Shown piece after piece: positions 14,619 to 58,440 of a stretch of DNA of 64,000 nt. The DNA is from Diprion similis (lineage: Eukaryota > Arthropoda > Insecta > Hymenoptera > Diprionidae). Every line of letters begins with the position of its first letter. The first letter of the stretch is position 1. The DNA is taken from assembly GCF_021155765.1 (NCBI RefSeq), contig NC_060109.1, positions 6,540,001 through 6,604,000 of the forward strand, read 5' to 3'. The notes beneath the pieces were generated by a model. It did not search any database and was not told the origin of the DNA. It saw only the letters and a list, made by a program, of their open reading frames with translations. The translations under genes and the position numbers were made by a program.

Positions 14619-16761
14619 CCCTTAGCGCTCCGTTGGCCCCGCTACGGAGCCGTCCGTCATTTGTTCCGTAACTCCGTAGGCTCCGCTGCAGAGCCCAATT
14701 TTTTTAGCACGATTAGGCTTAAGATGTTAGAGAATCATCAGCGTTGGCAATTGTTATCTGTAGTTAAAAAGTGATCAGTCTCGCTATTGTTACGATTATA
14801 ACATTATTTGACTCATTTAATGGTTAACAACATGGATAATAATAACTATTGTGATGGGAATGTAGAGTTGAGTGATAGTGAAGATGCGTTTGATTTTTCA
14901 TTATCAGAAGATATTGTGGAAGACTATGTCGATGATAATTCTGACTCTTCAAGTTGTGGTTCCGAAATTATACAACCAAAGAGACGACGAATGGTCGTTA
15001 TTGAAAGTGACAGTGAAGAGTCGTCGGAAGACTTAGATGAATGGCGCGATGTCACAGAAGAATTAGATATTCCGGATAGAATACATTTAAGTGTATCGCC
15101 AAAGGTCAGTGGACCACAAATTCCTACAAATATTGTACAGCCGGCACAATATTTCAAATTATTTTTCACCAACGAACTGGTAAATGAAATTATAAAAGAA
15201 ACCAATAATTACGCAGAAAATTTTATAAAGAATAAAGAAATATCTAGTCATTCTATTTGGAAAACGTGGCGTGCGGTGGAAGAGGGTGAGTTTTGGGCTT
15301 TTATTGGAGTTATTATCAATATGGGTATGATACCCTTGGCGAATATGCAGGATTATTGGTCAATCAAGGAGAATAGTCACATCCCTTACTTTTGTAAAAT
15401 ATTTACAAGAAAGAGATTTATGCAGATATTCTGGATGCTGCATTTAAAAACACCGGATCCTGCGAAAAATGACATTAGAACACGCATTCAACAAGCATCT
15501 AATGTTTTGGAATATATGAACTCAAGATTTTCAGACTATTTCATACCTGGAGAAAACATATGCGTTGACGAATCTGTAGTTAAATTCAAAGGAAAGATAA
15601 GCTTCATCACATACCATCCCAATAAGCCTATCAAGTGGGGCATTCGAATATACGTTCTAGCAGATTCCGAAACTGGATATGTGTACAGCATTCTTCCGTA
15701 TTATGGAAGCATCACTTCTGAGAATCTTTCAAGGCCAGATTCACTGGCCAGCACCAGAATTACCCTGCATCTGTACCAATAATTATCAGATCGAGTACCT
15801 ACCGCAGAATGATATCATATGCATACCGACAGGTATTACACTAGTATACCCTTATCTCAAGAATTAAGAAAAATGAAATGCCACTTGACCGGTACCATAC
15901 AAATAAACAGAGAAGGTGTTCCAACAAGTTTGAATAAACCAAAATTAAAAGAAAAAAAAACTGTCGCATACAAACAAGGCAATACAATGCTCTTAGCTTG
16001 GAGGGATAAGAGAATAGTAACGTTATTGAGTAACTGGCATAATGCTGGAATGATAACCACTAATATATTTATTCGAGGTGGTACAAACGAAGTGATTGAA
16101 AAGCCAAGTGTAGTTGTCGGGTACACAAAGTCCATGGGTGGTGTTGATCGGGCTGATCAATACGCCTCCAGTTATTGCTTTTTGAGGATCTCACTTAAGT
16201 GGTGGCGAAAACTATTCTTTTAGGCAATGGAGATGTCAATAATTAATTCATACATCTTGTATAAAACTGTACAGCATAGTAAAAATGAGAAAGCATTGAC
16301 GCATTCAAAGTACAGGAAAATTGTAGTCGATCAACTCGTAGGAGGTTTTCGTCAGAAGAGAACAAGAGTTTCTACATCAACTTCTGAAATAAGACTAAAT
16401 GGAAAACTGCACATAATGAGGAAAGGTCCAAAGAGGGACTGTGTTGTGTGCTCTACAAGGAAACAAAGGGATGGCAGACGTCAAACAAGTGAATACTGTA
16501 ACACTTGCCCAAGTAAACCCAAAGTGCACATGGGAGATTGTTTCCAAAGATATCACACCATGGTGAATTACAAAATTTAAAATTTACTTTTCATTTATAA
16601 GAAGAAGGTGCACATGTAAAATAAATGAAATCAAAAACATTCACAAGCACGTGTATTTCTTCTCACTTAAATTAGGACTCTTTCTTTACACTCGTTCTAC
16701 TGCGAAAATGCGCCAGAGTTGCTGGTAGGCAGTGGTACAAAAACGTGCGGAGCACTAAGGG
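14619..16761 (+). mobile_element. piggyBac-family DNA transposon, both ends present
   Basis: TTAA lies at 14615-14618 and 16762-16765. The termini match as inverted repeats over 14 positions with one mismatch: CCCTTAGCGCTCCG on the left, and CCCTTAGTGCTCCG for the reverse complement of 16748-16761. The left subterminal region has inner palindromes (GCTACGGAGC, GCTCCGCTGCAGAGC). At 2.14 kb it has the size of a complete piggyBac-like element and contains a single transposase gene. It is the best preserved DNA transposon in the window. Confidence 0.92.
14820..16580 (+). pseudogene. piggyBac transposase (DDE_Tnp_1_7) with three in-frame stops
   Basis: The frame starts at the first ATG, 14820, after an upstream TTG-opened stretch, and stays in one register to 16580, about 586 codons, close to the usual length. 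An acidic N-terminus is followed by the DDE domain. The three catalytic aspartates of the family are visible in ICVDES, MHTDRYYTS and GGVDRADQ, and a C-terminal cysteine-rich segment (CVVCSTRK ... CNTCPSKP) matches the DNA-binding ring of the family. Stops at 15780-15782 (TAA), 15810-15812 (TGA) and 16221-16223 (TAG) interrupt it; no frameshift is needed. It therefore looks recently inactivated. Confidence 0.92.
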
Positions 16762-31770: not shown

Positions 31771-31890
31771 ATGTCCGAGTCAGACTCCGAAAACGAATAC
31801 GCTGATTGTAAAGAGCAATTGACGCTTAGCAAAGCACATCAATTATTGAAACGGGATATCACTTCCAAGCTAAAGAAAAGAGGCTTCGGA
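31771..31890 (+). pseudogene. First ORF (gag N-terminal part) of the gypsy element, cut by the Polinton
   Basis: ATG at 31771 begins MSESDSENEYADCKEQL and runs open to the Polinton insertion after 31890. The frame resumes at 42774 in the same register (VDENTSWDILRKQLVDL) until a TGA at 42942-42944. The 6-bp target repeat is TTCGGA here and TTCGAA on the far side. The function of this N-terminal part is not recognised. Confidence 0.65.
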
Positions 31891-34800
31891 AGTAGATAAT
31901 ATTTGAGAGTTCTGGAATCTAGTTCCAATTTCCGCCACCAGCCCCCCAATTCCTACAGGCCGGGGCGACTGCAGCGCCGCTGGGGGGGGGGGGGGGGGGG
32001 GGGGGAATTCCTGTCGGGTCTTGTTCGACGGCGAGAGGCTCTAGGTTAGATAACGCTAGACCACTTGAAAAAATTCCTGGAAATGCTGCCTCTCAGCTCA
32101 TGCCGATAATAAACGCAGTGGGGTAGGGACACAAGGAGGAAATTAAAACCATGCCAGAATATTTGGTAATGTGCTTATGCATCATTATAAACCATCGCAA
32201 AAACCTTATGCAGAAATTTACCAAGCGGTTCACTCTTGGCTAATCGTCGCAGAGTCGGATTCTCACCACCTGGGTTCAATAATTACTGACTGCTGCTACG
32301 TTTTCTCGAAAGGCTTTTCCCGAACAAACCTTTTCGTCAGGTTCCATGAACATCAATCACCCGGTCAAGAGTATAGGGATGAGAATTCATCTCTATGCCG
32401 CTCGAAGCCACTCTTCGCCAGCCGATTCTCTCACTGTGTATCTTCAAAGTTTTTTTTCACTGACAGGGGAGGGATGGGCGTGTGCAGACTCAGACATGGT
32501 TGACCACAATTTTTATCTTGGAAGCTGTTGCTGCTGCAGAACGCGAAGATCCCCCCCCCCCTCTCTCTCCCTCCGTCCCACCCTCCCTCACGATCCTTTG
32601 ACATAAGGGCAACACATCCATTGCAGACTCATCAGTCTTACACAACACGTAAAAAGAAAAGGTTCAGAATATCATCGTCACCAACGTCAAAGTCATGGCC
32701 GCCGAAGCATACATGGGACTCGTCGAGCAGATGGGGGAGGCGTACAATTTGCTGCGCGAGCAAACTCCCGGAGAAAGAAGTCACGATGTCTTTAATCATT
32801 GGATTGGTATTGGAGTGGCAAATACACAAGTTTTGCAAGATATTCTTCAACAGCCGAGAATGAGTGTGGGGGTGAAACAGCGAATCCAACATAAGATCTC
32901 CCTCATACAATCCCGGGTCGCAAAGATCCAGCAGCAACAGCGGCAGCACGGCCTCGTGATAGGCGGCAATATCAGCAGTCCAGCGGGTGTACAGTGGGAC
33001 GATGTTGACAGCGCTTTTGCTGACCGGATTCGCACCGGCATTGTGACCAATCTTGGCCGTAAGGATTTGAAGGTCTTTCTGAGCGACGCGCGGCGGATCA
33101 TCGTAGGAAAATTGAAACTGGCACAGCGTAATGAGGGGAATGTGAAGGTCAACATGATATTGACATGCAAATTTGAACACGTCAAGCATGACGAGGTCGC
33201 TGCGGAAGTTAAAAGCTTCAATACATCCAACGTGACGATCCTCCCATCGAGTGATATAGACGGCTGGTTCGCGGACGCAAAGAACAAACTGCTCGTAAAG
33301 GTCGAAGATTTCGAACAACGTGATTCCGGCTGGAGTATGATCGAGATTTTAAATATTGCCGTAAATGTCAACCGATACCAGCCTCTCGCTGCAGCAGCTT
33401 CAACATTCGTCACGCTACCCATGGACATTCAACGCAAGAAGGCTGTGGTCAACGTCAAAAACGAGGATAAAAGATGTCTTCTGTGGGCTCGTTACCGCAG
33501 CTCTCCACCCAGTCGACATCAGTATTAGCCAGATGCATAGCTATCGCCGATATATTCGAGAGTTGGACTGCACAGGCAACAAATTCCCCGCTACTCTGCA
33601 TGATGTGGAAAAGTTTGAGAAATTAAATAATTTGCGAATCAATGTATATGCAATAGAATCCGAAACTTTTTCGCATCATGCAAAATCCGAGAAAAGCATC
33701 ATCATGCCGATTTATTTGAGTAAAAATCAGCGTAGCGCAAACGTTGACACGATTCATCTTCTAATGGTTGAAAGTAACAATTGTCCCAAACATGATGTGA
33801 ACCGCGAATTCACACCAAGATTCCACTTTGCTTGGATCAAAGATCTCTCGCGATTGGTTAGCAAACAATTGTCTCAACATAATGGCCAACTGTTTTTATG
33901 CGACAGATGCCTATGCCACTTCGCCGTAAAACACGCCTACGACCACCATCGGCAGGATTGTATTATGTTGAATAAAGTGCGCATGGAATTTCCAAGATCT
34001 GAAGATTCAAATTTAAAGTTTAAAAATTTCAAAAACTAAGGCACTGTCCCGTTTGTTGTTTACGCCGGTCTCGAATGTATATTAAAATCCGAACCTGTAG
34101 ACGAATTTCAAAACCGTAAAACATATGAAATTCAAAAGCATATCCCGCACAGTGTAGCATACTACGTACATTGCGCGTACGATGAGACCTTATCGGAGTT
34201 TCATGGTAAACGCGGCACCGATTGCATCGATTGGTTCATGCAAGAGGTTAAAGATTTATCGGTTGAAGTAGAGTCACGAATCAAAAATATAATTCCGATG
34301 GAGTCTCTCACCCAAGTGCAACGCGATCTTCACATGCGCGCAAAAAATTTTTATATTTGTGAAAAGCCGTTTACTCCCGAGGAGAAAAAGTGCCACGATC
34401 ATTGTCACTTCACGGGTAAATATCGCGGTCCTGCGCATAATCGGTGTAATTTGAATTTCAGAGAGTCGCATACAATTCCGATAGTTTTCCACAATTTGTC
34501 CGGTTACGATTCACATTTTTTGATTGAATCCCTGGCTTTGACTTTCCCGGAGCGGTTACACTGCTACCCATAAATGAGGAAAAATATATATCCTTCACGG
34601 AGCAGGTTGATGGAACGATGATGCATTTGAGATTCATCGATTCGTTTCGATTTATGGCTAGCAGTATTGATAAACTTTCTTCGTATTTAGGCGATGTCGA
34701 TAAACGCATAACACGTGAATTTTACAATAATCCCGCGCATTTCAGCTTGATTACCCGCAAAGGCGTTTTCCCTTACGAATACGTCGATTGTTGGGAGAAA

Positions 34801-35834
34801 CTTGACGAAACTGAATTACCTGCAAAGAATCATTTCTACTCACACCTCTGCAATTCGAATATCACAGACACCGATGTTGAGCACGCTAAAAATGTTTGGG
34901 AAGAATTCCGTTTAGAGTCTTTGGGGGTCTATTCCGATTTATATTTAAAGACGGATGTTTTGTTACTTGCTAATATTTTCCAAAAATTCCGGGCTAGCTG
35001 TTTTAAAACATACGATTTAGATCCGTTGCACTACTACACGGCGCCGGGGCTTGCTTTTGACGCGATGCTTAAACACACAAAGGTGAATTTACAACTTTTC
35101 GATGATCCCGAAACGGTTTTATTCATTGAAAGAGGCATTCGAGGTGGCGTAGCGCAGTGCTCTAATCGACACGCTCACGCCAATAACAGATTTATGGGCA
35201 AAGATTTTGATCCGGATAATGTGGAATCGTATCTTATGTATTTCGATGTGAACAATCTTTACGGTGCGGCTATGAGTGCACATTTACCAACCGACTCGTT
35301 CGAGTGGGAGCATGATCCTATCGATATAACAACCCATCCGGACGATTCACCGATCGGCTACATCCTGGAGGTGGATTTGGACTATCCTACAGAGCTCCAC
35401 GAGGAACACAAAGACCTACCTCTCTGTCCGGAGCATTTCACACCGCCAGGTAGTGAAATCCCTAAACTCGCCACCACCCTTCACCCCAAAACGAAGTATA
35501 TACTACACTATAGAAATTTGAAGCAATGTTTGAGTTTAGGTTTAAAATTAGTCAAGGTGTATAGAGTTTTAAAATTCGCACAATCTCCATGGCTCGAGCC
35601 TTACATCACGCTCAACACCAACATGCGCAAGCAGTCCAGAAACGAATTTGAGAAAAACTTTTACAAATTGATGAATAACGCTGTGTTTGGTGAGACTATG
35701 GAGAATGTACGAAATCACACAAATGTCAAATTAGTTACAAAATGGGAGGGAAGAGGTGGTGCGCGAGCGCTTATCGCTAGGGCAAACTTTCATAGCTGCA
35801 CCGGATCCGAGACTGATATGGTTATTATAGAAAT
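31891..35834 (+). repeat. Left arm of the Polinton palindrome
   Basis: Every position x pairs with 74666-x in the right arm from the middle edge out to the G-run (2-bp offset beyond it). Translated reading frames are the same residue for residue over hundreds of codons. Differences seen: G-run of 24 versus 22, one G/A next to it, one C/G near 35813, and scattered changes in the outer 70 bp. The G-run lies 91-114 bp from the tip. Confidence 0.92.
32007..32694 (+). other. Terminal-proximal non-coding region of the Polinton arm
   Basis: No gene recognised. ORFs of 60-110 codons are mirrored in the other arm and lack motifs. A C/T-rich stretch lies at about 32551-32594. A TTATAAA at about 32184 could be a promoter element, unproven. 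Confidence 0.5.
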
Positions 35835-36462
35835 GAATCGTGTCAAAGTTTACTCTAAGAAACCAATTTATATCGGTGCGGCGATGTTAGACCTTTTGAA
35901 AATTATTCTGTACGATTTTCATCACAATTATATAAAACCGAATTTTCCCGACAAAAAAGCCACGGACAGCCTTATTTACCAATTTAATGTACTTAACATC
36001 TACGATATCGTCAAACATGATGTTGATCCAATGTGTGACACCTCGGACTACCCTCCCGACGATGTGTACGGTATTCCGCTCAAGAACAAGAAACGTCTGG
36101 GCATAATGAAGGACGAGAACAACGGGAAAATTATGACAGAGTTCATTGGGTTGCGAGCGAAGCTGTACACATTCACAACGATGGGCGGAGATGAGAAAAA
36201 ACACGTCAATGGTACGAAAGTAAGCAAACGCGCAAAGGGTGTCAAGAATTCAACGCTGAACACCATCACGTTTGACGATTATAAGCGCTACCTGTTGGCT
36301 TACAAGGAATCGGCTCGATCGCAATGTCTAATTCGTAGCAAAAAACATCAACTAAACACTATCGTACAGAAGAAATTGGCTCTGAGTCGGCAAGATGACA
36401 AGCGGCAATTGATACCTGGGCAGACCGACACCTTACCTTGGGGGTTTGCCGCTGCCCCATAA
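32695..36462 (+). pseudogene. Polinton protein-primed DNA polymerase B, left copy, broken
   Basis: Four blocks form one large polymerase. 32695-33528 is the N-terminal region ending KKAVVNVKNEDKRC; a one-base frame change near 33485-33500 leads to 33500-34039 (IKDLSRLV, then a zinc-binding CDRCLCHF). A TAA at 34037-34039 precedes the exonuclease block to 34573, with an HNH/endonuclease-VII-like CHDHCHFTGKYRGPAHNRCN and FHNLSGYDSHF. A frame change near 34565 leads to the palm block to 36462. Motif A is YFDVNNLYGAAMS, motif B is [15 protein letters not shown]. The exonuclease I motif reads AGLE where the 20-kb fragment has ADL, and motif C (ATDS near 35959) lacks its first acidic residue. The enzyme is inactive. 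Confidence 0.9.
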
Positions 36463-36539
36463 AAGTAATTATAGGATTAGCTGTATGTATGAAACTGCCA
36501 CGAATACTTACGTTCGACACCTTGGACGATCCTTTGTCA
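36463..36539. other. Short region after polB
   Basis: Non-coding tail following the stop of polB; nothing further recognised. Confidence 0.4.
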
Positions 36540-37665
36540 AATCATTTATTCAAAAATGAAAAAAAGTTTTCAGATAATGAAAAAAAGTTTTCCGGAAACG
36601 AGGAAAAGTTTTCAGAAAACAAAATCCCCATTTGATTAACAAGTAAAAAAAGTTTTCTGTAACGGTTTGAATAAGCCCGCCTAATATAAATGACTAGTAT
36701 AGTAGATTTTAAGCCAAATTTGATCACTGTCGTCAGGTGTTCACGAGTTCCGTCGTGACCGTTCCTCGCCCCCACTCTCTCGTCGACGCCTGATATAATA
36801 ACATGTGAAACCATCGATATTAAGTGAGCTCGTCGAAAACGAAAAGTACATAACATATCTTAATAATTTATTTGAAAGTTAACGAAAAATATTCAAAACC
36901 TTTTATAAAAGTGCTATATAAATATATCAAAACGAACGAGGATAATAAAACGACGCAAAATTGAACGATTTACGAAAACGAAAACGAGAGAACATAATGG
37001 AAATTAAACGAATGTTAATGGACGATAACGAGGCGCAAATCTGCTAGGCATATTAACGATAAGTTTTATTTCTACATTTATATACTATATTTTCACCGAC
37101 ATTTATTCTTTATTATACATTTTCAAAACATTTACACCCACATACACCAATCTACATACAAACCTAGCTTATATACATTCATATACACGTTTCTATATAC
37201 AACCTTGTTAATTTACACTTATACACACATCTATATACATAAACCTGTCTTATTTACACTCATATACACATATCTCTATACATATTTTCGCCAATTTACA
37301 CCATATTTAACACAATATAAAACCGACTTATTTATTAATATTATTAATACTGTGTTTTCTTTTCTGATTTATTGAGCTTTTTTCATCTTGAAACCAAACA
37401 TAAAAAAAATAAAGAAAGAGTAATCATAAATGGAAAAATTAAAATAAAATTATATATGGTATACATGTTATTTATACTTTTCTTATTTCTTTTATCATAT
37501 TTCATTAGTGTTGTAATAGAAACAAAAAAAATCTGTTACATTTCCAAATATGAAAAAAAGTTTTCAGAAAACAATATCCCCATTTGATTAACACGTAAAA
37601 GAAAAGTTTTCCCACTATAAAAAAAGGTTTTCCAGAAATGAAAAAAAAAGTTTCCAAAAATAAAC
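36540..37665 (+). repeat. Direct repeats of GAAAAAAAGTTTTC type flanking a dispersed repeat
   Basis: A block with GAAAAAAAGTTTTCAGAAAA and ATCCCCATTTGATTAACA occurs at about 36558-36655 and again at about 37551-37640. Between them (about 36660-37550) lies AT-rich DNA including the copy of the 13.9-kb dispersed repeat at about 36990-37110. The layout could be an insertion flanked by a duplicated block, or a small LTR-like element with these blocks as ends. Confidence 0.55.
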
Positions 37666-37812
37666 ATGTGCCGGATGGAAAAAAATTCCTTGCATCATTA
37701 TTATTACTGTTATCACGGATATGATCTATATGTATACATGAAAAAGAATTGACGGAATATTTTGTATAACTGTATGTTTTATTGTTATTCTGGAGAATAA
37801 ATACAAATTATG
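37666..37812. other. AT-rich spacer
   Basis: Non-coding sequence before the integrase end; nothing recognised. Confidence 0.4.
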
Positions 37813-38079
37813 CTACACGTCTGTTTTATTTATCCAACTGTTGTGTGAACTGTCAAATCCCAACCACGTCACATGGAGCTGATCTCTACGCTTGCGTAAT
37901 ACTTTTCCCACTAGGTAGCCATGGGGGTATTTAACGTTACTGAGTTCCTCCTTATAGAAGCCTCCTTCGATAGGATGATCTTGATAATCGGTAAGTTTGT
38001 ACGTCAGTCGATTGGTATTTTTCAAGTCGTTTACGGTGAATATTTCCGTTATCCACGTGGGCGTATACATTAATTGCAT
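37813..38079 (-). pseudogene. Polinton integrase C-terminus with chromodomain
   Basis: Minus-strand 88 codons: YTPTWITEIFTVNDLKNT, then GGFYKEEL and YLVGKVLRKRRDQLHVTWLG with a final WINKTDV. This is the linker and chromodomain end of the retroviral-type integrase of Polintons, which inserts the linear element and produces 6-bp target repeats. The catalytic core with the DDE residues should lie at higher coordinates but is missing; a stop precedes it (about 38092). It shows that the middle of the element derives from the integrase side. Confidence 0.8.
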
Positions 38080-38831
38080 GACATCGAATCATTTCACTTA
38101 ATGCGATGCTACTTAAAGTACAAACCCTCGCCAACGCTTATCATATCCAGCCGCCTCGTCCTCGCCCCCCCCTCTCCCCATCCTCCTTCCCTTCACCCTT
38201 CCTCCTTCCCTGCCTTGTTACTTCCGCTTTATCATCTCAACCAGTCGGTCTGCGGTGAAATTTTGAGTACGTGAAAAAATATAAATATCTAAATAAATAA
38301 GCAAGAACATTGAAAAGGGCTCGAAAAAAATCATTCTGCGTACTAGTTAAATAAGAAAATGCTGGAAAATAGAAAAAAATTCAAAATGCAGATCAACCAA
38401 GACAATCAGCTAAGCCGTTTATTTTAACCCACAATATTAGGGGGTTCGCTAGGCTGAAAGATCTAACTCCGAGTCAGGTGGCCGACCTGCTATAAAATGT
38501 GTAGATATACCCGTTTGGCGCCTCGGAAAGTCCTTCTTCAGACCCAGACGCCGCCCCTCCAAGGTCGTATTGAATGGATCGAAGTTTCAAATATACGATT
38601 TCAAATTCTATGCATCGAACAATTGATGCATATTCAAACAATGGAAGCGGGAAGATCCAAACCAGCATCCATGACGTCATCTGCTGAAGCGATTGATAGG
38701 AGCGTTCAGACTCAAGCACGTTTCCCGAGCCGCATAGCTAACGTGATAGCCGAATGATATCATTTATTTTTATATCATCGCTTATAACAAGGACGTAAAA
38801 CTAAGTTTTTCATCCCAAGTATTTGCCAAGT
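38080..38831. other. Remaining Polinton spacer
   Basis: No gene recognised. It has a C/T-rich tract at about 38150-38245. An 86-codon plus-strand ORF at 38497-38757 and an overlapping minus ORF at 38474-38719 lack motifs. AAGTATTT occurs on both sides of the junction at 38831/38832 and may be junction microhomology. Confidence 0.45.
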
Positions 38832-41800
38832 ATTTCTATAATAACCATATCACTCTCGGATCCGGTGCAGCTATGAAAGTTTGCCCTAGCGATAAGCGCT
38901 CGCGCACCACCTCTTCCCTCCCATTTTGTAACTAATTTGACATTTGTGTGATTTCGTACATTCTCCATAGTCTCACCAAACACAGCGTTATTCATCAATT
39001 TGTAAAAGTTTTTCTCAAATTCGTTTCTGGACTGCTTGCGCATGTTGGTGTTGAGCGTGATGTAAGGCTCGAGCCATGGAGATTGTGCGAATTTTAAAAC
39101 TCTATACACCTTGACTAATTTTAAACCTAAACTCAAACATTGCTTCAAATTTCTATAGTGTAGTATATACTTCGTTTTGGGGTGAAGGGTGGTGGCGAGT
39201 TTAGGGATTTCACTACCTGGCGGTGTGAAATGCTCCGGACAGAGAGGTAGGTCTTTGTGTTCCTCGTGGAGCTCTGTAGGATAGTCCAAATCCACCTCCA
39301 GGATGTAGCCGATCGGTGAATCGTCCGGATGGGTTGTTATATCGATAGGATCATGCTCCCACTCGAACGAGTCGGTTGGTAAATGTGCACTCATAGCCGC
39401 ACCGTAAAGATTGTTCACATCGAAATACATAAGATACGATTCCACATTATCCGGATCAAAATCTTTGCCCATAAATCTGTTATTGGCGTGAGCGTGTCGA
39501 TTAGAGCACTGCGCTACGCCACCTCGAATGCCTCTTTCAATGAATAAAACCGTTTCGGGATCATCGAAAAGTTGTAAATTCACCTTTGTGTGTTTAAGCA
39601 TCGCGTCAAAAGCAAGCCCCGGCGCCGTGTAGTAGTGCAACGGATCTAAATCGTATGTTTTAAAACAGCTAGCCCGGAATTTTTGGAAAATATTAGCAAG
39701 TAACAAAACATCCGTCTTTAAATATAAATCGGAATAGACCCCCAAAGACTCTAAACGGAATTCTTCCCAAACATTTTTAGCGTGCTCAACATCGGTGTCT
39801 GTGATATTCGAATTGCAGAGGTGTGAGTAGAAATGATTCTTTGCAGGTAATTCAGTTTCGTCAAGTTTCTCCCAACAATCGACGTATTCGTAAGGGAAAA
39901 CGCCTTTGCGGGTAATCAAGCTGAAATGCGCGGGATTATTGTAAAATTCACGTGTTATGCGTTTATCGACATCGCCTAAATACGAAGAAAGTTTATCAAT
40001 ACTGCTAGCCATAAATCGAAACGAATCGATGAATCTCAAATGCATCATCGTTCCATCAACCTGCTCCGTGAAGGATATATATTTTTCCTCATTTATGGGT
40101 AGCAGTGTAACCGCTCCGGGAAAGTCAAAGCCAGGGATTCAATCAAAAAATGTGAATCGTAACCGGACAAATTGTGGAAAACTATCGGAATTGTATGCGA
40201 CTCTCTGAAATTCAAATTACACCGATTATGCGCAGGACCGCGATATTTACCCGTGAAGTGACAATGATCGTGGCACTTTTTCTCCTCGGGAGTAAACGGC
40301 TTTTCACAAATATAAAAATTTTTTGCGCGCATGTGAAGATCGCGTTGCACTTGGGTGAGAGACTCCATCGGAATTATATTTTTGATTCGTGACTCTACTT
40401 CAACCGATAAATCTTTAACCTCTTGCATGAACCAATCGATGCAATCGGTGCCGCGTTTACCATGAAACTCCGATAAGGTCTCATCGTACGCGCAATGTAC
40501 GTAGTATGCTACACTGTGCGGGATATGCTTTTGAATTTCATATGTTTTACGGTTTTGAAATTCGTCTACAGGTTCGGATTTTAATATACATTCGAGACCG
40601 GCGTAAACAACAAACGGGACAGTGCCTTAGTTTTTGAAATTTTTAAACTTTAAATTTGAATCTTCAGATCTTGGAAATTCCATGCGCACTTTATTCAACA
40701 TAATACAATCCTGCCGATGGTGGTCGTAGGCGTGTTTTACGGCGAAGTGGCATAGGCATCTGTCGCATAAAAACAGTTGGCCATTATGTTGAGACAATTG
40801 TTTGCTAACCAATCGCGAGAGATCTTTGATCCAAGCAAAGTGGAATCTTGGTGTGAATTCGCGGTTCACATCATGTTTGGGACAATTGTTACTTTCAACC
40901 ATTAGAAGATGAATCGTGTCAACGTTTGCGCTACGCTGATTTTTACTCAAATAAATCGGCATGATGATGCTTTTCTCGGATTTTGCATGATGCGAAAAAG
41001 TTTCGGATTCTATTGCATATACATTGATTCGCAAATTATTTAATTTCTCAAACTTTTCCACATCATGCAGAGTAGCGGGGAATTTGTTGCCTGTGCAGTC
41101 CAACTCTCGAATATATCGGCGATAGCTATGCATCTGGCTAATACTGATGTCGACTGGGTGGAGAGCTGCGGTAACGAGCCCACAGAAGACATCTTTTATC
41201 CTCGTTTTTGACGTTGACCACAGCCTTCTTGCGTTGAATGTCCATGGGTAGCGTGACGAATGTTGAAGCTGCTGCAGCGAGAGGCTGGTATCGGTTGACA
41301 TTTACGGCAATATTTAAAATCTCGATCATACTCCAGCCGGAATCACGTTGTTCGAAATCTTCGACCTTTACGAGCAGTTTGTTCTTTGCGTCCGCGAACC
41401 AGCCGTCTATATCACTCGATGGGAGGATCGTCACGTTGGATGTATTGAAGCTTTTAACTTCCGCAGCGACCTCGTCATGCTTGACGTGTTCAAATTTGCA
41501 TGTCAATATCATGTTGACCTTCACATTCCCCTCATTACGCTGTGCCAGTTTCAATTTTCCTACGATGATCCGCCGCGCGTCGCTCAGAAAGACCTTCAAA
41601 TCCTTACGGCCAAGATTGGTCACAATGCCGGTGCGAATCCGGTCAGCAAAAGCGCTGTCAACATCGTCCCACTGTACACCCGCTGGACTGCTGATATTGC
41701 CGCCTATCACGAGGCCGTGCTGCCGCTGTTGCTGCTGGATCTTTGCGACCCGGGATTGTATGAGGGAGATCTTATGTTGGATTCGCTGTTTCACCCCCAC

Positions 41801-41971
41801 ACTCATTCTCGGCTGTTGAAGAATATCTTGCAAAACTTGTGTATTTGCCACTCCAATACCAATCCAATGATTAAAGACATCGTGACTTCTTTCTCCGGGA
41901 GTTTGCTCGCGCAGCAAATTGTACGCCTCCCCCATCTGCTCGACGAGTCCCATGTATGCTTCGGCGGCCAT
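38832..41971 (-). pseudogene. PolB, right copy, truncated by the palindrome junction
   Basis: It has the same blocks and the same lesions as the left copy: the frame change near 41170, stop at 40627-40629 and frame change near 40100. The palm block (from 40048) keeps motifs A and B but stops at the junction, running into 22 bp of foreign sequence to a stop at 38810. Motif C and the thumb are absent. The identical lesions in both arms show that the gene was already broken before duplication, or that the arms have been homogenised. Confidence 0.9.
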
Positions 41972-42773
41972 GACTTTGACGTTGGTGACGATGATATTCT
42001 GAACCTTTTCTTTTTACGTGTTGTGTAAGACTGATGAGTCTGCAATGGATGTGTTGCCCTTATGTCAAAGGATCGTGAGGGAGGGTGGGACGGAGGGAGA
42101 GAGAGGGGGGGGGGGATCTTCGCGTTCTGCAGCAGCAACAGCTTCCAAGATAAAAATTGTGGTCAACCATGTCTGAGTCTGCACACGCCCATCCCTCCCC
42201 TGTCAGTGAAAAAAAACTTTGAAGATACACAGTGAGAGAATCGGCTGGCGAAGAGTGGCTTCGAGCGGCATAGAGATGAATTCTCATCCCTATACTCTTG
42301 ACCGGGTGATTGATGTTCATGGAACCTGACGAAAAGGTTTGTTCGGGAAAAGCCTTTCGAGAAAACGTAGCAGCAGTCAGTAATTATTGAACCCAGGTGG
42401 TGAGAATCCGACTCTGCGACGATTAGCCAAGAGTGAACCGCTTGGTAAATTTCTGCATAAGGTTTTTGCGATGGTTTATAATGATGCATAAGCACATTAC
42501 CAAATATTCTGGCATGGTTTTAATTTCCTCCTTGTGTCCCTACCCCACTGCGTTTATTATCGGCATGAGCTGAGAGGCAGCATTTCCAGGAATTTTTTCA
42601 AGTGGTCTAGCGTTATCTAACCTAGAGCCTCTCGCCGTCGAACAAGACCCGACAGGAATTCCCCCCCCCCCCCCCCCCCCCCAGCGGCGCTGCAGTCGCC
42701 CTGGCCTGTAGGAATTGGGGGGCTGGTGGCGGAAATTGGAACCAGATTCCCAAACTCTCATATATTATCCACT
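38832..42773 (-). repeat. Right arm of the Polinton palindrome
   Basis: Inverted copy of 31891-35834. Inner limit at 38832, outer tip at 42773 (ATTATCCACT). C-run at 42661-42682, mirror of the left G-run. Confidence 0.92.
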
Positions 42774-43060
42774 TTCGAAGTAGATGAGAATACGAGCTGG
42801 GATATATTGCGAAAGCAACTGGTCGATCTAGTACGTGCAGAGAACGAGGAAAGAATAATAACAGAGCGACTTTCTACATGGGCAAAGCAGTACGAAGTAA
42901 ACAAGGCAAGAACCAGTCACGTGGTGGATAATAACACGGGGTGAACACGATCGACATCATGACGGAAAACACGAAATTACTTGTCCATTCAAAGACAGAT
43001 GACTGGGAAGCATGAATAGAGAGAATGGAGCTTTATTTTGTCGTAAAAAGACTTGACGAT
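42774..43060 (+). pseudogene. Gypsy gag continued, between Polinton and solo LTR
   Basis: 42774-42944 continues the first ORF (ENTSWDILRKQLVDLVRAEN) to TGA. A second ATG at 42959 opens MTENTKLLVHSKTDDWEA, stops at TGA 43013-43015, and goes on (IERMELYFVVKRLDD) to 43060. A D-D-W start with an ELYF segment is typical for the N-terminal capsid region of insect gypsy gag. The frame resumes at 44202 after the solo LTR. Confidence 0.7.
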
Positions 43061-46867: not shown

Positions 46868-48628
46868 AGTACATTAAGGTCAAACTAAATAGTAAAACAG
46901 TGTCAATGGAGGTAGACTGAGGTACGTACTATGCAGTAATGTCAGAAGGGTTCAAAATTGAAAATTTCAGAAATTGGAAAATCGATAAATGTTGCACGAA
47001 TTTATACGGTTACGTACAAGACGCGATGACGCCGATTGGGTAATTAAAGAATCTGAAAGTAAACTTAAATAATCAAACAAAAACATTGAGTTGCCTAGTG
47101 CTTAGAGGAAATGGCCTGCCACTGATTGGTGGACAGTGGCTGGCAGAGTTCGGTGTATGGCCTAATTTGTCAGACATTGCTGCATTGAGCGATACCAATA
47201 AAATGTTCAACCTGAATGTGAACGATTTAAGAGAAAAAATGTTATCGAAATTTAATGTTTTGTTCGGAGGCACGCCTGTATAATAAAAGGGAAATTAAAT
47301 TACACGTAAAAGAAAATACGAAACCGGTCACGTTGAGGGTACGACACGTGCCATACGCGCTCAAAATTAAAGTAGAGAACGAGATCGAACGTTTGGAAAG
47401 GTTGGGTCGTTTAAAAAAAGTGGAATCAAGCGAGTGGGCCACGCCAATAGTCCCCGTGCTAAAAAGTAATGGCGAAGTAAGAATCTGCGGTGATTTTAAA
47501 ATGACGGTAAACCCGAATTTGCACATGACCAAACGACCGTTTCCGCGTATTCACGACATTTTCCAAGTATTACAAAAAGGGTCATCTTTCTCGCAACTTG
47601 ACCTACCGCACGCCTACATGCAGATTCCGGTTGACGAAAAATCACAAGAATTATTAACGATTACGACCCACGTCGGTTTATTCCGGTACACGAAAATGAC
47701 AGAGGGCACGGCGCCGGCCCCAGGCGAATTTCAGCAAATAATGGATGAGTGTTTGCAGGGTATTCTAAACACCATTGCTCACCTAGACAATATTTTTGTA
47801 ACCGGCCGCACGGATAAAGAACACCTTGAAAATTTGCGCAAAGTATGTAAACAATTGGAGGAGCGCAGGCTGAGATTGAATAGAGGAAAATGCGATTTCA
47901 TGAAAGAGCGTATTGAAGTCTTAGGTTATGTGATTGATGCGGCCGGTCTACACAAGGCGAGATCAAAGGTGAAAGCAATGGTCGAAGCACCAAGACCAAC
48001 AAACAGCAAACAGCTTGCCTCATTTCTGGGACTAATTAATTTTTACGCGAGATTTTTGATGGATAGATCTGAAAAATTAAAGCCTCTTTTTGACGGTGCG
48101 CACAGAAGGAATTTTGTATGGACCAAGGAATGTGACGAGGCTTTTTGCTGGGTAAAAAAGGAGTTAATCTCTCCAAGGGTACTGGCCCATTACGATCAAG
48201 ACGAAGCATTGGTTTTGGCTTGTGATGCGTCAATGTACGGACTGTCGGCGATCTTATCGCACAGGTATAAAGACGGAACGGAAAGACCGATCGCGTATGC
48301 ATCAAAGAAAATACCGGAGATGAAACAGAGCAATTATAAATAAGGAGGCGAGCGCGATTGTATTCGGGTAGATGAAGTTTTATGATTTCGTTTAGAGCAC
48401 ATATTCGGTCCAACAAAAGGTATACCGCTCACAGCGGCGAGCCGTTTGCAAAGGTGGGCATACTTTTTGTCAGGGTTTCGGTACAAGATCGAGTACATCA
48501 AATCGGAGTGCAATGGAAACTGCGACGCGTTGTCGCGTTTACCGGTTGATGATGAAACAAATATTTTCGACGCAGAGTTCACACCGGTTTATTATGTCAA
48601 TGAGAAGATGAATATAGTAGATTGGTAG
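46868..48628 (+). pseudogene. pol: protease, reverse transcriptase, RNase H
   Basis: The protease stretch begins after 46871; the active-site triplet is interrupted by a TGA (about 46917) after VD. GNGLPLIGGQWL near 47107 is the protease-RT linker, and a frame change near 47280 leads into the RT (47255-48343). There LERLGRLKKVESSEWATPIV, FSQLDLPHAY and the catalytic box, which reads HLDN at 47780-47791 instead of two adjacent aspartates, are visible. RNase H follows (VLACDASMYGLSAIL), with a stop near 48343 and remnants to 48628 (CDALSRLP). It synthesises cDNA in intact elements; this copy cannot. Confidence 0.88.
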
Positions 48629-48661
48629 GAGGTAGTCCTTGAAACAAAACGCGATGAAGTC

Positions 48662-49764
48662 TTGAGCAGAATTGTAAAATTTTACATCTCAGGATGGCCA
48701 AGCAACAACAAAGACTTGTCCAGCGAGGAGCAAAAATATTTTGTTAAAAAGAACGAAATCGCAATAGAAGGGAATTGTTTGTTTTGGGGATGTAGGGTAA
48801 TTATACCAGAATCGTTACGGGACCGGCTATTAGCTGACCTTCATGCATCGCACCTAGGGATTGTGAAGATCAAAGCCTTGGCGCGATCGTACGTGTGGTG
48901 GCCTAATATTGATCAAGACATCGAAAATACAGTAAAGTCATGCGGAATTTGCATTAAAGAACAGAAGGCACCACCACACGCACCATTGACGCCATGGCCT
49001 TCGCCAGAGAAGGTGTGGGATAGGAAACACGCAGATTTTTTGGGCCCATTGTTCGGGGATATGTATCTAGTCGTAGTGTATGCATATTCGAAGTGGCCAG
49101 AGGTTATTAATTTCCGAAACAACACGAAGGCGTACGGAGTAGTCGAGGTGTTCGATGAGTTATTCGCTAAATACGGACTACCGAATCTGGTGGTTACAGA
49201 CAACGGCCCGCAGTTTAGAAGCGATGAGTTAGGGCAATTTTTTAATAGTAACGGTGTTCAGCACAGTTTTCTCCACCTTACCACCCGGCGACCAACGGGG
49301 CTGCCGAAAATTTCGTGGGTATATTTAAAGATGAGGTAATAAAAATCGAAAAAGGGGGAGAAAGGGTAGATAAAGCGATAAATAAATTTATGTTTGACTA
49401 CCGCAGCACGCCGCACTGCATAACCGGGAAGTCACCTGCGTGGTTATTCCACAAGCGAGAGCTCAGAACACGGTTTGACTTACTGAGACCGAATGTACGT
49501 AATAAGATACACGAGAAGCAGCAGTCACAGGTCAACAATAGTCCGCATTCACGCAATGTGCAACTGAACGTAGGTGACCCAGTCATGGTTGACAATCACG
49601 GTACATCCGGCGGGAAGCGTATCCCGGCCAAAATTATTAAAGATTTGTCACCGTCCACGTTCAGAGTAAGAACCGAATCGGTTAACGTCACGAAGCGCCA
49701 TACCGATCAAATTGTTAAAGTACGTCGTTCAGCGCGAATAATAAACCGTCAGCCAAAGTTATAA
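48662..49764 (+). pseudogene. pol: integrase
   Basis: H2C2 zinc finger: H at ASHLG and the pair CGICIKEQ; catalytic core with DFLGPLFGDMYLVV and VVTDNGPQF, the first two acidic residues. A frame change near 49290-49310 moves the third acidic residue into the 49315-49764 frame (GIFKDEVIKI follows). The C-terminal segment (LNVGDPVMVDN, IKDLSPSTFRVR) is the usual end domain. Integrase inserts the cDNA. One frameshift breaks it. Confidence 0.88.
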
Positions 49765-54338: not shown

Positions 54339-55505
54339 TGGATTCTAAATCGTTTGTAGTTGTTTGTAGCGGAAAAATTTTCGTTTGTAGTAAAAAACCA
54401 AAAAAGATACAGCGTTTCCAAAAATGGGGATCACCCCACTTTGAAATTTTCAAAAATCGTGATAAGATGCAGGAGTAGAATCGTTTGTAGTTATTTGTAG
54501 TAAAAGAATTTTCGTTTGTAGTAGTCCCGAAAAAAAGTTACAGCTATTTTAAATTTTCAAAAAATTGAAATTTGGTAATATTTGAGGTGCATCGGATATT
54601 AAAGTTCCTATCGACGTAGAATAGTTTGTAGTTGATTGTAGTGAAAGAATTTTCGTTTGTAGTTAGAGCGAAAAAAAGTTACAACCATTTAACAATTTTT
54701 GAAAATGCCAACTGTTTCGTTTTTTGAGGTGCGTTCGACCTGAGGGTGGATCTCGACGCAGAATCGTTTGTAGTTGATTGTAGTGGAAGAATTTTCGTTT
54801 GTAGTTGAACCGAAAAAAAGTTACAGCCATTTATTGATTTTTGAAAATACTAACTTTTTCGTTTTTTGAGGTGCGTTTGACCTGAGTGTTGATATCGACG
54901 CAGAATCGTTTGTAGTTGATTGTAGTGGAAGAATTTTCGTTTGTAGTTGAACCGAAAAAAAGTTACAGCCATTAATTGATTTTTGAAAATACTAACTTTT
55001 TCGTTTTTTGAGGTGCGTTTGACCTGAGTGTTGATATCGACGCAGAATCGTTTGTAGTTGATTGTAGTGGAAGAATTTTCGTTTGTAGTTGAACCGAAAA
55101 AAAGTTACAGCCATTTATCAATTTTTGAAAATGCCAACTCTTTCGTTTTTTGAGGTGCGTTCGACCTGAGGGTGGATCTCGACGCAGAATCGTTTGTAGT
55201 TGATTGTATTGGAAGCATTTTCGTTTGTAGTTGAACCGGAAAAAAGTTGCAGCACTTTGTAAATTTTCGGAAAATTGGAATTAGTTATTTTTTGAGGTGC
55301 ATCGGATATTAACGTTCCTATGAACGCGGAATCGTTTTAGTTGATAGTAGTCGAAGAATTATCGTTTGTAGTTGAACCGAAAAAAAGTTGCAGCAATTTG
55401 TAAATTTTCGGAAAATTGAAATTTGTTATTTTTTGAGGCTCATCGGATATTAACGTTCCTATGCACGCGAAATCGTTTGTAGTTGATTGTAGTCGAAGAG
55501 TTTTT
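54339..55505 (+). repeat. Satellite, 142-bp unit, about 8-9 copies
   Basis: The marker GAATCGTTTGTAGTTGATTG-like word starts at 54478, 54619, 54761, 54903, 55045, 55187, 55329 and about 55470: spacings of 141-142 bp. Each unit also holds a second TTTCGTTTGTAGT and an AAAAAAGTTxCAGC. The central copies (54761-55187) are the most alike; edge copies are degraded. Confidence 0.92.
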
Positions 55506-58336: not shown

Positions 58337-58440
58337 GGTTAGGTTAGGTTAGGTTGGGTTGAGTTGAGTTGAGTTGAGTTGAGTTGGGTTGGGTTGGGTT
58401 GGGTTGGGTTGGGTTGGGTTAGGTTAGGTTAGGTTAGGTT
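58337..58440 (+). repeat. TTAGG-type pentanucleotide tract
   Basis: 104 bp in unbroken 5-bp register: TTAGG units at both ends, TTGAG units (five) and TTGGG units (about seven) in the middle. TTAGG is the ancestral insect telomere repeat. The tract abuts the 5' end of an R1-clade LINE at 58441. Confidence 0.9.

Follow-up and report, generated by a model that had tools for sequence, protein, structure and literature searches.

Protein-primed linear genomes of the adenovirus type yield snap-back or defective forms with terminal inverted duplications. Among transposable elements, a close parallel is Galileo of Drosophila, a foldback-like member of the P superfamily; where PMC3573991 treats its terminal inverted repeats (TIRs), these are described as long (up to ~1.25 kb), variable in length and extended by absorbing internal sequence, and repair from the other TIR is proposed. 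The same part of that paper, citing other works of which one is a 2007 review, states that inverted-repeat expansion was also reported for Polintons. On a larger scale, the sections of PMC7023750 and PMC7999016 that deal with gene conversion in sex-chromosome palindromes describe arms which are more alike than age markers suggest. In the literature outside subscription journals, no title or abstract opening among the matches listed describes a palindromic Polinton.

The element studied here lies in a window of 64,000 nt, the whole stretch of Diprion similis DNA that was analysed, and resembles each of these systems in part. Its family B polymerase gene (polB, PF03175), endonuclease VII-like domain, TIRs and 6-bp target duplication (TSD) are those of a Polinton/Maverick, and its longer relatives in the same genome extend the likeness with an A32-like ATPase and an rve integrase that carries a chromo domain (L029), and with a double jelly-roll capsid protein as well as a phospholipase A2-like protein (L012). 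Unlike known Polintons, the palindromic copies are built from mirrored arms several kb long, frequently centred on a hairpin, and carry an integrase tail only and no ATPase or capsid match among the matches listed. The long, length-variable inverted repeats recall Galileo, but here the element is a Polinton and is mirrored almost in its entirety. As in the sex-chromosome palindromes, the arms are more alike than their age markers suggest, whereas the present palindrome is a small mobile element found at many sites. A terminal inverted duplication of a protein-primed linear genome is shared with the adenovirus-type defective genomes; in contrast to those, the two tips are not identical, and the form is found repeatedly, as a lineage, and is known here from integrated copies alone. 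The window element likely stems from a palindromic (foldback) lineage of Polintons and was inserted long ago, its arms then being homogenised by conversion and its right arm shortened at the hairpin.

The initial annotation had described a 2 x 3.94-kb palindrome with Polinton-type ends and an inverted arm carrying most of polB, and this description was confirmed. The element (31891-42773) is a true inverted palindrome with arms at 31891-35834 and 38832-42773 around a 2,997-bp loop (Table 1). A base-by-base comparison gives arm lengths of 3,944 and 3,942 nt, with seven mismatches (31894, 31903, 31912, 31913, 31921, 31962 and 35813) and one 2-nt difference in poly-G length. Six of the mismatches fall in the outer 72 bp (31894-31962) and the remaining one lies 21 bp short of the inner junction; between 31963 and 35812 the arms are identical apart from the poly-G length. 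The inverted-repeat scan printed 100% identity over 3,851 nt (31984-35834 / 38832-42682), a stretch which, by the base-by-base comparison, includes the mismatch at 35813; the outer ends (31884-32003 / 42661-42780) pair at 94%. Both ends begin with AGT, and the AGT...ACT termini are common to the family. The annotated 6-bp target repeat is present, but its copies (TTCGGA/TTCGAA) agree at five of six positions. Since the outer flanks are unlike each other, the palindrome is no simple fold-back of a read.

Table 1. Features of the palindromic element and its target duplication (window coordinates).
Feature	Position	Strand	Remarks
Left target duplication copy, 6 bp	31885..31890	.	TTCGGA; right copy differs by one base
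Left arm	31891..35834	+	TIR, endonuclease VII-like fragment, most of polB
Outer TIR tip to poly-G run	31891..31983	+	Carries 6 of 7 arm mismatches
Endonuclease VII-like ORF fragment	34238..34573	+	PF02945, E 1.3e-5
polB ORF, 614 aa	34618..36462	+	Upstream part of gene frame-broken; short in-frame stretch missing relative to L022
Single-copy loop	35835..38831	.	Part of left half with no mirror copy in the window element
Integrase gene tail	37715..38067	-	Matches longer relatives L011 and L029 until 38067, where the match ends in both
Sequence of palindromic copies following the integrase truncation	38068..38784	.	Unmatched in L011 or L029
Surviving stem of central hairpin	38785..38826	+	Positions 1-42 of 143-nt centre; loop and second stem gone
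Right-arm polB	38810..40048	-	Cut short by junction
Junction	38815..38835	+	10-bp direct repeat CCAAGTATTT; 4 bp (ATTT) common to right arm
Right arm	38832..42773	-	Inverted copy of 31891-35834
Right-arm counterpart of endonuclease VII-like ORF	40093-40428		Right arm; equal length
Right target duplication copy	42774..42779	.	TTCGAA

The polB of the window element matches PF03175 with an E value of 1.4e-21 and is cut by the right junction; the same domain is present in L029 and L022, and protein priming of the window element would follow from its membership in this family. Of the integrase by which Polintons/Mavericks are recognised, the window element retains the tail only, whereas the family possesses it (rve plus chromo in L029). 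The window element is a non-autonomous derivative. A Pfam scan of nine of its ORFs gave no match to an A32-like ATPase, a capsid protein or a transposase, and the domains found were Polinton-type. Among the genome-wide ATPase and capsid matches listed, none falls inside the element and both genes are found repeatedly elsewhere; capsid and ATPase matches of other Polintons lie just beyond both window ends (C5:6529251, 6532857 and 6606687). The rest of the window holds a DDE transposase (PF13843, which we take to be of the piggyBac type) across two ORFs at 14808-16223, reverse transcriptase, RNase H and integrase ORFs of the LTR-retrotransposon type at 47255-49339, a tandem array at 54477-55504 (142-bp period, 6.6 copies, higher-order period 426) and, opening a GC-rich stretch (57-64 kb), 20.8 copies of GGTTG at 58337-58440.

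A search of the 269-Mb genome with a 601-bp TIR query returned 42 matches (40 of 195 candidates scored). Ten further elements were fetched end to end from convergent end pairs, giving 11 with the window element, a choice that favours close relatives. Mirrored arms of ~3.5-6.8 kb were found in 8 of these 11, chosen among close TIR matches and including the window element, so that a one-off origin of its palindrome was rejected. The mirrored arms of L024/25 are 1.9 kb long, and L011/12 and L017 have TIRs of only 1.1-1.5 kb (~1.4 kb in L011/12). Since integrase homology to the window element ends at 38067 for L011 and L029 alike, whereas matches to the palindromic pieces that cover the joint run through this position or resume past it (L010, L013/14, L018/19, L020/21, L023, L024, L028, L033 and L034), the truncation was probably a single event common to the palindromic copies. 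Read by eye, a TSD agreeing at 5 or 6 of 6 bp flanks 10 of 11 hairpin-lineage elements (chance per element 0.005), the exception being L024/25. This count omits L018/19 and L020/21 (mirrored flanks), L015/16 (no TSD, no hairpin seen), L011/12 (no TSD, long form), L017 (6/6, outside the hairpin lineage) and the pair C3:17054k and C3:17090k, which was dropped as the ends of one element because flanks and TIR types disagree. The L018/19 palindrome (L018 150-402 and L019) takes in 154 bp of flank on each side, with a second TIR tip outside the left flank, which suggests copying inside the chromosome. Mirrored flank extends for ~200 bp or more at C12:1634k and for 154 bp at C14:721k; giant mirrored flanks around C12:1634k were not found at the two distances tested, ~4-5 and 10 kb out. 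The L020/L021 element has a 343-bp polB insert in both arms, and its centre is filled by a 2.25-kb stretch with TGTAACA...GTTACA ends.

Many palindromic copies share as their axis a 143-nt sequence with a DNA fold of -35.8 kcal/mol (z -10.5). Whole or partial, this hairpin adjoins Polinton sequence at 22 loci and in the window. Its relatives (72-90% identity, some under half length) occur at ten further loci; at nine of them the fetched 351-1,001 bp had no match to the tested Polinton pieces, and the remaining one (L051) had a weak match, 77% over 86 nt. The 143-nt centre thus reads as a dispersed hairpin repeat captured by the palindromic lineage. Rfam and tRNA scans gave no credible hit to a known RNA family or tRNA (best 34.6 bits vs a gathering score of 139.7). 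Among the matches listed, the hairpin was not seen in the palindromes L015/16, L018/19 and L020/21. Two hairpin-lineage elements, C13:10893k and C13:10946k (L054, L055), stand as mirror images separated by ~53 kb, their printed hairpin sequences being the same, and between them lie capsid and ATPase matches of another Polinton family.

The window element lacks the inner part of the right arm, and the join there was annotated as possible microhomology. Indeed, AAGTATTT is present twice at the junction, but it belongs to a 10-bp piece of the hairpin stem that occurs twice (38815-38824 and 38826-38835), and the homology with polB is ATTT only. With a 101-bp junction query, a genome match across the join was found in the window element and nowhere else (40 of 81 candidates scored), and its inheritance by other copies was not seen. 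Seven elements lack at least 1 kb of one arm beside a remaining hairpin (the window element, L009/10, L022/23, L024/25, C12:920k, C4:6820k and C3:17054k), and all of them break in the hairpin or no more than ~20 bp away, a sample biased by the fact that a remaining hairpin was required for inclusion. The break partners in the arm differ among the seven. Breaks at hairpin positions 110-112 occur at four loci (L023, L032, L033 and L034), joined to four different places, with 48 bp between hairpin and joined sequence in L034. The smaller arm difference of L026/27 (<1 kb) lies away from the hairpin.

In a 2.4-kb polB alignment and tree of 19 arms or elements, sister arms group together in all eight elements, while the elements differ from one another by 1.7-7.7%. 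Arm-to-arm differences amount to at most three bases in seven of the eight, and to 93 in L015/16. Over 2,400 bp the window element carries 40 private substitutions in both arms and none in one arm alone; 38 of the 40 fall in tested codons and have a near-neutral dN/dS of 0.71. Moreover, both window arms carry a stop and two 1-bp indels when read against the L018 frame. At the tips, a comparison with 20 others shows five of the six differences to be private to one window arm; the interior rate predicts 0.02 changes there (tip excess P ~6e-11), although tip differences could predate insertion if the tips of the replicating form vary. In the five palindromes for which both arms were measured and the TSD was usable, there are three TSD mismatches in 60 bp vs four arm differences in 24,000 bp (P ~2e-7), TSDs being not necessarily perfect at insertion. 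The L015/16 arms, with 263 differences in 5,108 bp, contain one clean run of 830 bp (P ~7e-17), a mosaic conversion tract of a kind seen in L015/16 and not in the window element. Edge mismatches, imperfect TSDs, private and disabling mutations in both arms and the L015/16 tract together point to an exchange between the arms by gene conversion after insertion, with the edges spared. Arm identity above the age markers, along with conversion tracts, is what a conversion-maintained palindrome should display, and both are seen here, the tract coming from L015/16; the near-identical window arms are not a sign of recent origin.

These observations bear directly on the interpretation offered in the initial annotation, namely that a snap-back (DI-like) molecule was made during protein-primed replication and inserted as such; for a recent insertion of this kind we consider the case weak and the event unlikely. 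It would account for a palindrome with polB and near-identical arms, for the 5/6 target repeat and for a one-sided microhomology junction private to the window element (40 of 81 candidates scored), and a nascent strand folding from the hairpin onto polB would yield the window geometry. A recent event, however, would copy to the very tip and leave identical arms beside a perfect TSD, yet the window element has six differences in 72 bases, five of them private to one arm, and a TSD mismatch. The near-neutral private substitutions and disabling mutations in both arms also speak against it, as does a left half that already holds part of the centre common to many copies. What stands of that interpretation is a palindromic Polinton with family ends and target duplication; the recent snap-back at the locus gives way to the recurring architecture and the signs of conversion. 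Arm identity is better explained by post-insertion conversion, and the locus by itself thus gives no evidence of replication as free linear DNA, as it would have done had the initial reading been real. An assembly artefact, through a fold-back read or collapsed arms, is very improbable: near-identical arms and the extension of the L018/19 and L020/21 palindromes into their flanks could be read in this way, but the outer flanks of the window element differ, its TSD is near-perfect, its arms differ in poly-G length and tip bases, and similar architecture occurs at other loci, one with ~5% arm divergence.

A more serious competitor, which we still rate well below the reading as an old palindromic insertion, is that a one-armed hairpin element moved and each palindrome was then made in place by gap repair from the left arm, TIR and hairpin stem serving as the two homologies and the window element having stopped half way. 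The one-armed element C4:6820k-6826k has a perfect 6-bp TSD, the mirrored flank of L018/19 means that arms can be copied in the chromosome, and TIR extension by recombination is what PMC3573991, in the part dealing with these repeats, proposes for Galileo. However, the asymmetric copies retain different hairpin parts (ends 33 to 112), which would not be expected from a shared one-armed progenitor ending at hairpin position 51, and several sites with a TSD hold palindromes whose hairpin is whole. For the preferred old insertion of a palindromic lineage, the common centre and integrase joint, the edge-only mismatches and the private junction are observed. The founder would have been a Polinton half, running from TIR through endonuclease/polB to truncated integrase and ending at the captured hairpin repeat, which was mirrored around the hairpin; this geometry agrees with a snap-back at the hairpin, whether in free DNA or in the chromosome, which may have founded the lineage. 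The lineage would then have spread, with 6-bp target duplications, to many sites, presumably with the help of integrase and capsid functions from longer relatives, and gene conversion after insertion would have kept the arms identical everywhere but at the edges. The central hairpin may act as a break hotspot. In the window element, the right arm could have been restored incompletely after a hairpin break, or could have lost sequence by deletion, and microhomology joining to polB would have left the 3.94-kb right arm and the 3.0-kb loop. The order of events, the repair pathway and the helper functions are inferred. Counting against this reading are the mixing in the polB tree, the three palindromes in which the hairpin was not seen, the lack of a TSD in L024/25 and the off-hairpin difference of L026/27.

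Some palindromic copies retain an open, selected polB without integrase: both arms of L026/27 carry an open frame of 1,258 aa and the left arm of L022 one of 1,261 aa, with a dN/dS of 0.28 between L022 and L026 (synonymous excess P ~4e-5, from rounded values). The L022 product matches the Pfam polB domain at 3.9e-27, whereas L026, 96% identical, has no such match, which is taken as a filter effect; against solved structures, L026 gave one match at chance level. In the polB tree, palindromic copies are mingled with the longer L011 and L029, so that recombination of polB between the forms, or more than one founding of palindromes, is likely. Tentatively, and with more doubt than assent, we suggest that a palindromic Polinton lineage without integrase and capsid, with a polB under purifying selection in its mirrored arms and a captured hairpin at its centre, multiplies as palindromic DNA; it would be a simplified replicon dependent on helpers, with a symmetry that belongs to its life cycle and a hairpin that gives rise to the palindrome and also erodes it.

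Within one genome, the family provides large palindromes that differ in age, many of them built on one centre, and so forms a natural series from which conversion between arms, breakage at the hairpin and repair on one side can be read directly. Near-identical arms are a poor clock in such elements. A Polinton derivative with polB and without integrase can become a multi-copy family, and if the palindromic form replicates, this would bear on how protein-primed elements tolerate or use foldback genomes.
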